Of a DNA stretch of 28,952 nucleotides, positions 24,158 to 28,101 are shown one piece after another. A program made the translations under genes and the position numbers. The notes under the pieces are model-generated. The model ran no database searches. It worked only from the letters and a program-made list of their open reading frames with translations, and was not told where the DNA came from. The DNA is from a virus: positions 1 through 28,952 of the IMG/VR virus record IMGVR_UViG_3300031857_001014. One strand, written 5' to 3'. The first letter of the stretch is position 1. Every line of letters begins with the position of its first letter.

Positions 24158-24799
24158 TTAAACAGCAATTCGTCTAACGGCACGAACATAAGAGGACACA
24201 CTAGTTTTACCAGTATTTCCATAAGCACCATTAGTAAAACTTTGATGTCTTGCATCTGTGCTATCAAATTCAGTGCTAGAAAAGTATATATCCGCAGCAA
24301 AAGATTCAGCCCCACCAGACTGAAATGCGGAAACTGATGTTTGAGCAGGAGTTCCACTGGAATAGTTTGAGCCTCGACTTGGAACAGCATTGGTATTTGT
24401 TCCAGAAACTCCACTATTTGTAGCGGTTGTAGGTTTTAAATTGTAATAGCAGATTTCAAGTTCATTTCTAGCTGGCATATACCAGTCAGTAAATCCACCA
24501 ATTGAAAGGTCTTCGCAGAATTGTGCGGCTGGATGACTAGCATTGTTCATATTGCTACTATTGGTTGGGCCATCAATAAGTGATGATGTTCCAGATGTGC
24601 TTGTTTCCGTTGTTTTCCATTGCAGCGAAACATTTTGACCAGATGCTTTAGGAGCAACGATTAAGTAATGCGTAGCTACACCCGATACGCCAATTTGACC
24701 AGCGTAAAACCCACCACCAAATGCCTGACCAATAACTGTCGGTACAGTTGGCGCAAACGACCTCTGGTTTTGAAAAACAGCTTGTAAAGCACCACTCAT
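24158..24799 (-). CDS. Lcl/DUF1566-type probable receptor-binding tail protein
   Basis: The start at 24799 ([20 protein letters not shown]) is set by an ATGA overlap with the fibre gene and by AGGGAG nine bases upstream; the frame runs to 24826. The 213-residue product contains an Lcl_C/DUF1566-like, C-type-lectin-like domain: [20 protein letters not shown], then [20 protein letters not shown] and a terminal SYVRAVRRI. Such folds bind ligands on tail tips, so this is a good candidate for host recognition. The gene looks more AT-rich than its neighbours, suggesting modular exchange. No reverse transcriptase or template repeat of a diversity-generating retroelement is seen. Confidence 0.7.
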
Positions 24800-25599
24800 G
24801 TCAATCCACTCCCTGAAATAAGCCAAGTTGTTGAAGTCATTTTAATTGCTGTTGCTGAACCATATTGAGCAAGACTGCGTGAGCCTGTAGTGCCAGCAGA
24901 AGACAAGTACATAGTGTCAGTAGTAATTGCAATCGTAACCACTTGACTGGTCATGTTGATGAATGTGATTGCAGTTCCAATTGGATAGGCAACAGAACCA
25001 TTGTCAGGAATTGTGTATGTCCTTGCATTGGCATCACCTGATGGGTGAAATATATGCTTACCAGCATCAGCAAGAACTAATGTGTAGGCAGCAGATTGGC
25101 TATTTTGTGGGATGTTTCTAAAACCTACGGCATCTGTTCCATCTACTGTGCAAGATGACAATGTTCCGCTGGATGGTGTTCCCAATTGAGGAGTTGTTAA
25201 TACTGGGCTTGTAAGAGTCTTATTGGTCAAGGTCTGTGTGCCAGTTAATGTCACATCACCAGTGGCAGCAGCTGCAAAATCTAATGTGCCAGACCCGTTG
25301 GTCTTTAGGACATAGTTGGCCGTGCTGTCAGCTGTGGGCAATGTGAATGCTGTGACAAAGCTCTGCAAGTTGGAGTCATAGGCCAGCACATCAGTGCCAA
25401 TGGCCACGCCAAGCGCTGTCCTGGCTGCTGATGCCGTAGCGCCACCAGTTCCACCTTTTGTGACCTTTAGCACTGGCCCAGCGTCAAACAGCGCGTCAAT
25501 TGAATCTAGGTCTGAATTGATCTTCGTTCCCCAGCTGTCGGTAGATGCACCAACTTCGGGTTTGGTTAGCAATAGATTCGTGGTGGTTGTATCAGCCAT
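24796..25599 (-). CDS. Tail fibre-like protein (267 aa)
   Basis: The N-terminus [20 protein letters not shown] with [19 protein letters not shown] is a common opening of phage tail fibre or collar proteins. The body is low in charge and Thr/Ser/Gly-rich with repeated elements ([40 protein letters not shown]), typical of trimeric beta-structured fibres. The last third ([20 protein letters not shown]) is beta-rich. It precedes the Lcl-type protein with a 4-base overlap, suggesting the two form a fibre and its tip. The trimer is inferred. Confidence 0.75.
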
Positions 25600-25607
25600 T
25601 TTTCACC

Positions 25608-26420
25608 TCATGCGGCAATTTGCCAAGATTCACTATTATCAGCAATTGGAGTCCAAGTTTCACTTGAATCACTAATTGCAGTCCATGTTTCTGACTGGTC
25701 AGATATCGGTGTCCAAGTCTCTGAATTATCAGATATCCCAGACCAACTTTCTGCCGTGTCACTTTCTGCTTGCCATTTTAGTCTTGCATTGACCGCCATG
25801 GATGATGTTTCTGTGAAAGCAATAGCACCAGGCTGCCTGCGCTGCGCATCCACCGCCATGGTGCTTGTGCCAGTCACAGCAAAGCCAGAATTGCCAATGA
25901 TGCTGGTTGAGACTGTCAGTGTCGATGTGTCAACAATCAAAGCCTGGCCAATGGCGTATCTGAGACCACCCACCGCCATGGTGCTTGTGTCACTGATGGC
26001 GGCTGCGCCCACCGCATAACGCACCCCAGCCACGGCCATGGTGCTTGTGTCGCTGATAGTGGCCGCAGCAGTTGTCACCCTATTGGCTGCCACGGCCATG
26101 GTGCTTGTGCCAGTAATGGCCATTGCACCATCAAAGACCTCATTGGCCTGCACAGTCATTGTGCTGGTAGATGTGATTGCTATGGCAGCAGAGACATACC
26201 TGATGGCCGCCACCGCCATGGTGGACTGGTCAAAAATCTCAAATTGGGTATTGGAAACAGTAACACCAGCCACCGCCATGGTGCTGGTGTCTGAAATAAT
26301 TATTTGAGGCTCAAATGTGCCTCTGGAGTAGTTGCCCTTGCCGTAAGAGCCGTAGCCGTAGCCTACCCTCGGATCAGAGTATTGGCCAACACCAAAATTC
26401 CCCGATCCATAGGCTGCCAT
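25608..26420 (-). CDS. Two-tier tandem-repeat virion protein (270 aa)
   Basis: An N-terminal Gly/Tyr-rich segment (MAAYGSGNFGVGQYSDPRVG and following) leads into about nine 20-residue repeats with core TSTMAV (residues about 36-217). These are followed by five 10-residue repeats of the form SDxSETWTPI. No known enzyme motif is present. The regular spacing suggests a beta-solenoid or elongated fibre element. It sits between a gp80-like virion protein and the tail fibre gene, so a tail or decoration role is likely. The repeats are also strongly conserved at DNA level, implying recent expansion. Confidence 0.6.
   Translation of the reverse strand: MAAYGSGNFGVGQYSDPRVGYGYGSYGKGNYSRGTFEPQIIISDTSTMAVAGVTVSNTQFEIFDQSTMAVAAIRYVSAAIAITSTSTMTVQANEVFDGAMAITGTSTMAVAANRVTTAAATISDTSTMAVAGVRYAVGAAAISDTSTMAVGGLRYAIGQALIVDTSTLTVSTSIIGNSGFAVTGTSTMAVDAQRRQPGAIAFTETSSMAVNARLKWQAESDTAESWSGISDNSETWTPISDQSETWTAISDSSETWTPIADNSESWQIAA
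25611..25766. repeat. 30-bp tandem repeats (five 10-residue units)
   Basis: The end of the repeat-protein gene encodes five successive 10-residue units (SDTAESWSGI, SDNSETWTPI, SDQSETWTAI, SDSSETWTPI, ADNSESWQIA), so the DNA repeats with a 30-base period. The units differ by a few bases each. Such arrays can expand or contract by slippage or recombination. Confidence 0.85.
25769..26315. repeat. 60-bp tandem repeats (about nine 20-residue units)
   Basis: The core GCCATGGTGCTTGTG (plus strand) or a close variant recurs about every 60 bases, for example near 25856, 25976, 26036 and 26096, with diverged copies near 25793, 26153, 26214 and 26274. Each unit encodes TSTMAV plus 14 variable residues. 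Conservation is highest at the TSTMAV codons. Confidence 0.85.
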
Positions 26421-26421
26421 A

Positions 26422-26817
26422 TCAGGCCAAAGTGATGCTCAAAGATGCAGCTGGAATGCGCAAGACATCGCCATCATTGATGGTGCGCGCTGTGGTCAAA
26501 GGGGCCCAGGCCAAAAGGTTGCCAGAAGTGCTTGCGTCAAAAATGCCAGCCCAGCCCACTGATCCCCAGTTACCGCCAGAGGCAGCTGCAAACTCGATGG
26601 CCGCTGCATTGGTGAATGTCGTGGCCGTGCCAGAGCCTGAGATCGTGCCAGTGACCACGCGGGCATAAGCATTGCCAGACACCTCAGTGCCGCCACCCGT
26701 GTCACTGGGCGCAGCCGTGAAAAGGCCAACATACCAGGCTGTCGGGCGGGTTGCCGTGTTCGTTGTAAATAGAAAATTTAAAACTAGGTTTTCGGTGTAG
26801 TCGCTGAAAGATGACAT
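26422..26817 (-). CDS. gp80-like virion/tail protein (131 aa)
   Basis: The product begins MSSFSDYTENLVLNFLFTTN, followed by RPTAWYVGLFTAAPSDTGGG, a pattern seen in a family of phage proteins often annotated as tail fibre protein or gp80-like. The rest is beta-rich with SGNAYARVV, WGSVGWAGIFDAS and GDVLRIPAASLSITL. The exact role is not established; the conserved position after the head-tail adaptor suggests a particle component. It lies 10 bases after the adaptor gene and two bases before the repeat-protein gene. Confidence 0.7.
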   Translation of the reverse strand: MSSFSDYTENLVLNFLFTTNTATRPTAWYVGLFTAAPSDTGGGTEVSGNAYARVVTGTISGSGTATTFTNAAAIEFAAASGGNWGSVGWAGIFDASTSGNLLAWAPLTTARTINDGDVLRIPAASLSITLA

Positions 26818-26827
26818 GGTCTAGTCC

Positions 26828-27451
26828 TTATCCAAAAGTCTTTGCACGGGTCAGCAATGCACCACCAGAAGATGCACCGCGATCATCGGCAGTTTGTAAA
26901 TCATTTAAGGCTCGCTCATACAGCGTTGCCCATGTCTGGATTCTCGCATCATCTTGCAAGTATGGTGCAGCCTGGAGCAGTGATCCATACAGATAAATGT
27001 CTGGGCTTGATGCCAAAAGCCAGTTGCTGGCCACACTGCTTGATAACTTTGTCAACTTAGCGTAATAGGTCAGCTCAGTGGTGTAGTTTGCATCGGGTGT
27101 TGGGACAATTCGGAATTGGCCACCAACAACACCAAAGAATCTTGGTTTGCCACTGGCCGTGTATTCGGCTGCCTTGTTGTCCAAGGCATCAATGCTCAAA
27201 AATTCCAATGGTGTTTGGGGATTTGTGCTGGTGAGCTTGAGGGATTTGGTCTCAAGAAAGTCGCTTGGCACTGCGCCATATTGCGCGTCAAAAGACGCAT
27301 TGGCCCTGACGATCATCTGCCTGGTGCGCAGTGTTCGCTCCACTTGAGCCTCGGCCAGAGAGATAAAGTCGGGAATGACTGTGGTCAGGTCTGACCGATT
27401 AAGCCAGTCGCCAATGGATGTCTTCAGCTCTGTATATGTAGTCAGTGCCAT
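26828..27451 (-). CDS. Head-tail adaptor, P22 gp4-like
   Basis: The 207-residue product begins MALTTYTELKTSIGDWLNRS, then DLTTVIPDFISLAEAQVERT, the usual opening of podovirus adaptor proteins that bind under the portal ring. A helical bundle is followed by a beta-containing insertion (SDFLETKSLKLTS, RFFGVVGGQFRIVPTP) and a C-terminal helix (YLYGSLLQAAPYLQDDARIQ). It would form the dodecameric ring joining portal and nozzle. The start and the glycosyltransferase stop share one base (TAATG). The family is recalled by pattern, not by search. Confidence 0.75.
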   Translation of the reverse strand: MALTTYTELKTSIGDWLNRSDLTTVIPDFISLAEAQVERTLRTRQMIVRANASFDAQYGAVPSDFLETKSLKLTSTNPQTPLEFLSIDALDNKAAEYTASGKPRFFGVVGGQFRIVPTPDANYTTELTYYAKLTKLSSSVASNWLLASSPDIYLYGSLLQAAPYLQDDARIQTWATLYERALNDLQTADDRGASSGGALLTRAKTFG

Positions 27452-28101
27452 TATTGGGCCTCTTTTTCCATTTCCTCTTTCACAATCCAGGTGTGTTCAT
27501 GGCGAAACTCAAATGTGCCAATGTGGCCAATTTCCTTTGAGACATCATGGTCGATGTAGACTTTGTAACCCAGCTCTTGCGCTTTCTTACAAAAAAACAC
27601 ATCTTCTCCCATATAGCCCCGTGTGGTCTGCCACGGCATATCAAACCATGGCTCGCTCATGCCCTCAAACACCTCGCGCTTGATCAGCATTATGCCCGTT
27701 CCAATGCTTCCCACCTCTTCCAATCCGGTGGATTCTGGCATGGTGAAAACAGCCTGGCGCTTGCCGTCAGCGTCATAGTTCTGGGCAGTTGGGCCAGTGG
27801 GCATTCTGCGCCTGGCACAGTTGGCAGCCACAATCTCTTTGTCGTGCTTTAAGAGCCTTTGAACCATGTCCTGTGGAAATGTCATGTCCGAGTCAATGAA
27901 AAGGATGTGGGTGCAGCCTTCAGCCATGGCATCCAAGCAAAGGTCAGCCCTTTGGTTTTGGATAATTGTGCCTTGCATCAATTTCAGACTGATAGCGTCT
28001 GTGGTGTTGAGGGTGTGATAAGCCACCATATTCACCATGCAATAGGTGTAATTTGTGTGGACCTGATCACGGGCAGGGGTGCATACAGCAATGTAGTTCA
28101 T
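27451..28101 (-). CDS. GT-A type glycosyltransferase
   Basis: The 216-residue product has a GT-A-like plan. CTPARDQVHTNYTYCMVNMV at the start is the nucleotide-sugar entry, GTIIQNQRADLCLDAMAEGC follows, and HILFIDSDMTFPQDM at about 65-79 carries the DSD (DxD) metal-binding motif. Later come GSIGTGIMLIKREVF and YMGEDVFFCKKAQELGYKVY, as in family 2-like or Anp1-like enzymes. It may glycosylate a virion protein or alter the host surface. Its location in the virion operon, between the 105-residue gene and the adaptor, suggests a particle protein. It overlaps the preceding gene by four bases. Confidence 0.8.
   Translation of the reverse strand: MNYIAVCTPARDQVHTNYTYCMVNMVAYHTLNTTDAISLKLMQGTIIQNQRADLCLDAMAEGCTHILFIDSDMTFPQDMVQRLLKHDKEIVAANCARRRMPTGPTAQNYDADGKRQAVFTMPESTGLEEVGSIGTGIMLIKREVFEGMSEPWFDMPWQTTRGYMGEDVFFCKKAQELGYKVYIDHDVSKEIGHIGTFEFRHEHTWIVKEEMEKEAQ

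Follow-up and report, generated by a model that had tools for sequence, protein, structure and literature searches.

How fibres are attached to the tail in most uncultured short-tailed phages is, to our knowledge, not known, and the question is raised here by a gene for a highly repetitive protein in a stretch of viral DNA of 28,952 nucleotides, the whole of which is called the window below. The minus strand of the window carries a major capsid fragment, a glycosyltransferase-like gene, an SU10-type adaptor, a Gp80 homologue, the repeat protein, and a tail-fibre-like protein, and then an endolysin, a virion structural protein, DNA-ejection-like proteins, replication genes, and the large terminase; judging from the sequence, this gene content would look like that of a podophage. 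We propose that the repeat protein is a tail strut of a short-tailed phage, which would join the base of the tail to the receptor-binding fibre that the following gene encodes, and we give this reading about an even chance of being right. The features concerned are the following:

25608..26420, minus strand: gene of the repeat protein or strut, P0001, 270 aa (translation, dN/dS, and relatives).
26295..26420, minus strand: Tyr/Gly-rich N-terminal segment, residues 1-42, the proposed anchor (alignments and column identity).
25755..26294, minus strand: nine 20-residue units, residues 43-222, predicted to be beta-solenoid coils (autocorrelation, unit table, AlphaFold2, and structural alignment).
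25611..25778, minus strand: C-terminal Trp ladder, residues 215-270, with six Trp and five SDxSETWTPI-like decamers (translation and decamer identity).
26422..26817, minus strand: homologue of Gp80 (podophage GP4 fibre I), P0003 (Pfam PF23140, E 7.4e-40; PDB 8jou chain E 9.6e-11).
26828..27451, minus strand: tail adaptor of the SU10_adaptor family (Pfam PF24175, E 7e-39; PDB 9nwi and 7z47).
24796..25599, minus strand: tail fibre P0002, with a near-invariant N-terminus (26 residues) and a variable remainder, the proposed partner of the Trp ladder (BLAST relatives).

The original prediction had described 20-residue units with a TSTMAV-type core followed by 10-residue units of the SDxSETWTPI type, and both the translation and the autocorrelation bear this out. 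Units 1-9 are exactly 20 residues each and share a [ST]TMAV-like core, the five decamers occupy residues 221-270, and Trp residues stand 10 residues apart at positions 216, 226, 236, 246, 256, and 266. The self-similarity of the protein is significant (p = 0.001, 1000 shuffles), with z scores of 16.0 at lag 20, 10.2 at lag 40, and 7.1 at lag 10, and the same autocorrelation test found a significant period in none of the five neighbouring proteins (P0002-P0006). In an alignment of 42 sequences, position 4 of the unit is Ser in 97% of 373 units, and the mainly hydrophobic columns include 6, 8, 13, 18, and 20. The N-terminus of the window protein is 17 residues longer than that of its 253-aa relatives and contains a YG motif twice; the N-terminal segment (26295-26420) seems to have been doubled in the window's subgroup.

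The same DNA repeats had been called well conserved and taken to suggest recent growth by duplication. The former holds in part, in that Tandem Repeats Finder reported 30-nt arrays over the decamers and there is a modest excess of shared codons, but the 60-nt units of the window gene are only 33-67% identical; within the gene the same program listed a 6-nt run (26348-26363) besides the decamer arrays and no 60-nt array. Window units share the codon at 116 of 259 identical residues (0.45 vs 0.30 under the null, p = 0.002), mostly in the core, and an excess at p ≤ 0.05 was seen in 4 of 10 relatives tested. Some exchange between units within the window's lineage is possible. Recent growth itself is unsupported, given the divergence of the unit DNA, the way in which units match by position across genomes, and a nearly constant length. 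Units that occupy equivalent positions in different genomes share on average 52% identity, compared with 33% for units at different positions within a genome (42 sequences), and a unit finds its best match at its own position in 96% of cases for genomes at least 80% identical, 92% at 60-80%, and 55% at 40-60%. The units thus hold their positional identity over the family's nearer range, the middle units least. The dN/dS ratio is below 1 in all 36 regional comparisons (12 relatives, three regions), with 0.61 as the highest value.

Copy number was followed in 158 distinct loci, which comprise the best 80 of 127 relatives among viral contigs (IMG/VR) and the best 80 of 119 found with a divergent member as query. 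The nine-unit length is kept in 152 of the 153 relatives with an intact N-terminus (best 80 of each scan), in which the first Trp stands at index 198, 199, or 215; the last of these goes with the 17-residue N-terminal extension, which moves the first Trp 17 residues later in 56 of the 153 proteins. The single exception (L139) is exactly 80 residues shorter. Among 156 intact C-termini, with the two loci cut at the 3' end omitted, the ladder has six Trp in 136, four in 15, three in 3, and four plus a further, final Trp five residues on in 2. Variation in copy number between isolates, which had been thought possible, is for the 20-residue units nearly absent in this set, L139 apart, though their number differs between distant branches of the family; the decamers do vary, mostly two at a time. 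Conservation is likewise uneven along the chain: mean column identity is 0.73 for residues 18-38, 0.31-0.48 for the units, and 0.59-0.77 for the decamers, the last decamer having the highest value, and both ends of the protein are more conserved than the rod between them.

AlphaFold2 with 61 aligned sequences (mean pLDDT 71.4) placed a solenoid at residues ~36-212, with block means of 78-94 for units 1-6 and two strands per coil in units 4-6; pLDDT fell short of 50 over residues 1-35 and reached 49-59 in the ladder. VIA-align set residues ~31-214 on solenoids: 4opw (Z 18.7, rmsd 4.4 with the second model; Z 18.3, rmsd 2.4 with the first), 3ljy (Z 17.4), 7qpk (Z 15.7, rmsd 2.3), tapirin 6n2b (Z 15.5, rmsd 2.4), 4i84 (Z 14.5), and a stretch of 9rkv chain O (Z 14.1, rmsd 2.8, 169 residues aligned), while GlmU and LpxD chains aligned only at rmsd >11. 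We take 4opw, 7qpk, 6n2b, and 9rkv chain O to be right-handed and GlmU and LpxD to be left-handed. An antiparallel meander, hinted at by the long strands of the first model, was set aside in favour of a parallel solenoid on the strength of these alignments and of the two-strand coils of the second model. A constant coil length with a position-specific pattern, as in beta-solenoids, was found, the stacking itself being predicted. Foldseek returned no PDB match below 1e-3, so that the solenoid is a prediction of moderate strength; in BFVD the first model had eight matches below 1e-3, all uncultured phage proteins or nameless entries, and CRP-5 A0A646QWD6 followed at 0.03. The rod is predicted to be a beta-solenoid, best matched by beta-helices that we take to be right-handed, which lends moderate support to the earlier suggestion of a solenoid or fibre shaft; AlphaFold2 did not give disorder throughout the chain.

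The family profile, which is free of any model, picks out residues 704-774 of the Hap adhesin 3syj, with E values of 0.0016 (whole sequence) and 0.044 (best stretch), and apart from Hap no convincing relative of the strut or its counterparts, and none of the fibre N-terminus, was found among solved chains by sequence. Hap and HxuA (4i84), an autotransporter and a two-partner adhesin, have the beta-helix in common with the strut but are secreted bacterial adhesins. The Parabacteroides adhesin-like solenoids 4opw, 3ljy, and 3lyc, among the best structural matches (Z 16.6-18.7), are also bacterial proteins, presumably DUF2807 members; Pfam DUF2807 did not match P0001 at E 1 or any of the 61 aligned members at E 0.01, and the MEP402 counterpart gp62 matched it at E 0.0035, below the cut-off. 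The statement that no named family is known is also supported: Pfam and NCBIfam gave no match above cut-off, whether to an enzyme family, as was of interest for a comparison with tail spike depolymerases, or to any other, the best PHROG was phrog_31951 (173 columns, unknown function), a weak match to residues 73-163 (E 7e-4), and PF23140, the Gp80 family, matched the neighbour P0003 and not P0001. A single scan with two peptide patterns found no relatives in bacterial genomes. Beta-helical fibre shafts are known. The titles and abstract openings searched contained no description of the strut family, and within what was searched three features seem not to have been described: the strict 20/10 pattern, the pairing of conserved ends with a rod that can be exchanged, and the link to a single fibre N-terminus.

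The protein might instead be a trimeric tail spike or short fibre that touches the host itself, a three-chain rod whose ladder would act as an interdigitated trimer clamp or as a glycan-binding tip, and we regard this as somewhat unlikely. It gains from the solved phage match, since 9rkv chain O belongs to a tail-fibre entry of Agrobacterium phage 7-7-1, and from the long fibre gp015 of that phage, to which chain O may correspond and which is described as a trimer with an N-terminal baseplate anchor, a beta-helical middle domain, and a C-terminal jelly-roll part (PMC12796354). Chain O differs from the strut, however, in its 560 residues and 15% identity. The unit bodies vary most, which speaks for a spike, but the C-terminus is the most conserved part of the chain, and the variable partner is the product of the next gene. 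Receptor-binding tips usually vary.

The surroundings of the gene are constant. With neighbours called by simple ORF rules, in the 158-locus set (best 80 of each scan) the Gp80 homologue lies directly upstream of the strut gene in all 148 callable loci, a P0002-related fibre lies directly downstream in 150 of 153, and all 128 loci with 1.1 kb or more of upstream sequence contain the adaptor gene. The fibre N-terminus is near-invariant in the 26 starts compared, and the called fibre ORFs vary widely in length, some being cut by contig ends. In SU10 the fibre proteins gp12 (proximal) and gp13 (distal) are numbered directly after the adaptor gp11 (PMC9509320). The order of adaptor, Gp80, strut, and fibre agrees with that of an SU10-like proximal fibre gene, with Gp80 standing between adaptor and strut; no SU10 chain was returned for the window protein or its profiles among PDB sequences. 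Two further genes deserve mention. The glycosyltransferase-like gene upstream of the adaptor (27451-28101, minus strand) has a homologue in 94 of 105 family loci with at least 1.9 kb upstream (best 80 of each scan), and its product could modify the Ser/Thr-rich coils of the strut. The gene after the fibre (24158-24826, minus strand) encodes an Lcl_C domain (E 6e-9) and possibly a further host-contact protein.

The association was also approached from the fibre. A search of viral contigs with just the first 60 or 70 residues of two fibres gave 159 loci (best 80 of each scan), of which 145 with at least 500 nt upstream were kept, the upstream gene again being called by simple ORF rules. In these 145 loci (best 80 of each scan), the gene directly upstream of the fibre has at least three ladder Trp in 92, two in 23, one in 14, and none in 5, and no ORF was called in 11. 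Only 17 of 758 other forward frames (stop to stop, 120 aa or longer) from the same loci have three or more, a rough control because many of these frames are not genes. The strut-based set already contained eight of the 134 upstream ORFs, and 84 of the other 126 have at least three Trp. A 20-residue period was found in 79 of these 84, in 12 of the 23 with two Trp, and in 1 of the 19 with fewer. These counts indicate that the ladder, the rod, and the fibre N-terminus go together; on the other side, 19 of the 134 upstream ORFs have fewer than two ladder Trp. The YG motif near the start, sought with a simple pattern, was present in 45 of the 92 genes with three or more Trp, so that the YG end is less general. 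A rule of at least three Trp per ladder, true of the window's family (156 of 156), failed in the fibre-first set with its 23 loci of two.

On these grounds we favour the strut. A Tyr/Gly-rich N-terminal peptide would seat on the tail base, on either the adaptor or the Gp80 ring; the nine coils would form a short right-handed beta-solenoid rod that sets a fixed distance; and the Trp ladder would be the joint at which the conserved N-terminus of the next fibre docks, leaving the rest of that fibre to vary. What the data show is the repeats and how old they are, the gene order, the conservation of both ends, and the link between Trp ladders and this type of fibre N-terminus; the solenoid is a prediction, and we infer the orientation of the strut on the tail, its oligomeric state, its place in the virion, and the contact of the ladder with the fibre.

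The ladder occurs well beyond the near relatives. Of 145 selected CDS of at least 90 aa from 13 annotated phage-record regions, 10 have a lag-20 period, one of them (102 aa) apparently by chance, and 14 carry at least three spaced Trp towards the C-terminus, two of these being proteins of another kind, of 170 aa (CRP-4) and 341 aa (PVJ1). Both features occur together in eight CDS: MW202879, MEP402 gp62, Venkman gp51, phiM5_18, CRP-5 gp55, MW202481, MW202462, and C72C1, MEP402 and Venkman being Methylophilales phages; the strongest lag is 10 in phiM5_18 and 8 in CRP-5 gp55. CRP-4 gp54 has three Trp and no lag-20 match, and BcepMigl gp28, at the same gene position, has a weak 20-residue period (p 0.018) and no ladder. 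The CRP-4 and CRP-5 counterparts (L085 2447-3208 and L167 2112-2936) carry GDSRITE-type repeats with a top lag of 8, besides or in place of clear 20-residue units. In MEP402, gp61 (L083 4074-4379), a 101-aa protein adjoining gp62, has a three-Trp C-terminus and little room for a shaft. The labels "serine-rich adhesin" and "E3 ubiquitin-protein ligase HERC6" on L086 15802-16578, L170 12910-13626, and L169 5389-6219 seem to be chance annotations.

The branch of MW202462, with at least 79 loci, aligns with the window's family over 226 columns (hhalign probability 99.5, E 2.5e-23) with six Trp in register, a score that repeats can inflate. Six Trp are present in 71 of its 77 measured proteins and four in 5 (one cut), and the lengths of 196, 216, 276, and 294-296 suggest changes by whole units. 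Gp80 is directly upstream in all 76 loci with enough sequence (of at least 79), yet the fibre N-terminus motif was found within the 2.5-kb flanks of none of 79 loci, though the ladder is present. Conversely, the ladder protein is not next to Gp80 in MW202481, Venkman, MW202496, and DB2. In MW202496 the gene directly before a window-type fibre has, by eye, a YG motif near the N-terminus, a six-Trp ladder, and a different repeat shaft, and DB2 gp11 (L087 6211-7737, annotated as ribonuclease E) joins a repeat shaft of ~21-22 residues, also by eye, to the same six-Trp ladder. The Psychrobacillus phage PVJ1 (L172 5001-6427), annotated with baseplate and tape measure genes, has a Gp80 homologue directly after baseplate J and then the 341-aa protein, whose spaced Trp near the C-terminus are WxxL-like; this is perhaps the same fibre-joint idea.

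A precedent for such a ladder exists in SU10, where Trp839, Trp847, and Trp857, all from the same chain, are arranged as a quasi-threefold star on which one trimeric fibre sits, although the dock there belongs to the nozzle protein (PMC9509320). If the strut ladder worked in exactly this way, three Trp would seat one fibre and six would seat two, which we consider unlikely. Exactly three ladder Trp are found in six proteins of divergent phages (phiM5, MEP402 gp62, MEP402 gp61, CRP-4, CRP-5, and MW202879), and six is the commonest count in both the strut-based and the fibre-first sets, as the triad would have it. The counts do not go in threes, however, but by twos: with eight duplicates removed, the number is even (2, 4, 6, or 8) in 104 of the 107 upstream genes that carry two Trp or more, these loci being related and not independent, and 151 of 156 members of the window's family have six or four. 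SU10 thus remains a precedent for docking on spaced Trp, and the even counts do not favour its exact triad geometry. They suggest instead growth by 20-residue steps, with one coil carrying two Trp; the step of the ladder would then equal the step of the rod, which may be the reason that one period is half the other.

Whether the protein is in the particle at all bears on a third reading, namely that it is a chaperone or fibre-assembly factor whose gene adjoins that of the fibre and which does not enter the virion. The strongest result against the strut comes from here: in the particle proteome of phiM5 a mark of detection is given to the Gp80 neighbour and to the fibre phiM5_19, which has a window-type N-terminus, but not to phiM5_18 itself. 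The tryptic peptides of phiM5_18 are mostly long, which weakens this non-detection as counter-evidence, but a 16-mer and a 19-mer are among them and it is not removed. In the window protein the ladder falls within a single tryptic peptide of 55 residues. A chaperone would also explain why the gene adjoins the fibre gene in nearly every callable locus (150 of 153, best 80 of each scan). Against this, BcepMigl gp28 in the same position matches a PHROG named virion structural protein, and the fibre chaperones known to us do not resemble a rigid rod of repeats whose ends are conserved. We therefore find a chaperone quite improbable and, judging from the position of its gene, hold the strut protein to be a likely virion component. 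A disordered low-complexity linker of no defined fold, as the low pLDDT of residues 1-35 and of the ladder might suggest, is scarcely credible beside the well-scored units 1-6, the exact period, and the position-specific conservation.

More broadly, and tentatively, we suggest that these proteins belong to an unnamed but widespread class of two-ended podophage fibre connectors. In each, an N-terminal tail anchor, YG-rich in many members, would be followed by a rod of interchangeable type, either the 20-residue solenoid or a different repeat such as those of MW202496 and DB2 gp11. The Trp ladder, lengthening by two Trp and 20 residues at a time, would offer one socket shared by trimeric fibres, and receptor-binding fibres could then be swapped with no redesign of the tail. 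If the strut reading is true, 20-residue coils followed by a Trp every 10 residues would be the signature of a tail-to-fibre connector in many environmental phages; in the records examined such genes go by the names hypothetical protein, "serine-rich adhesin", or "E3 ubiquitin-protein ligase". The same signature would also point to the receptor-binding fibre next door, and the even Trp counts make the geometry of the joint directly testable.
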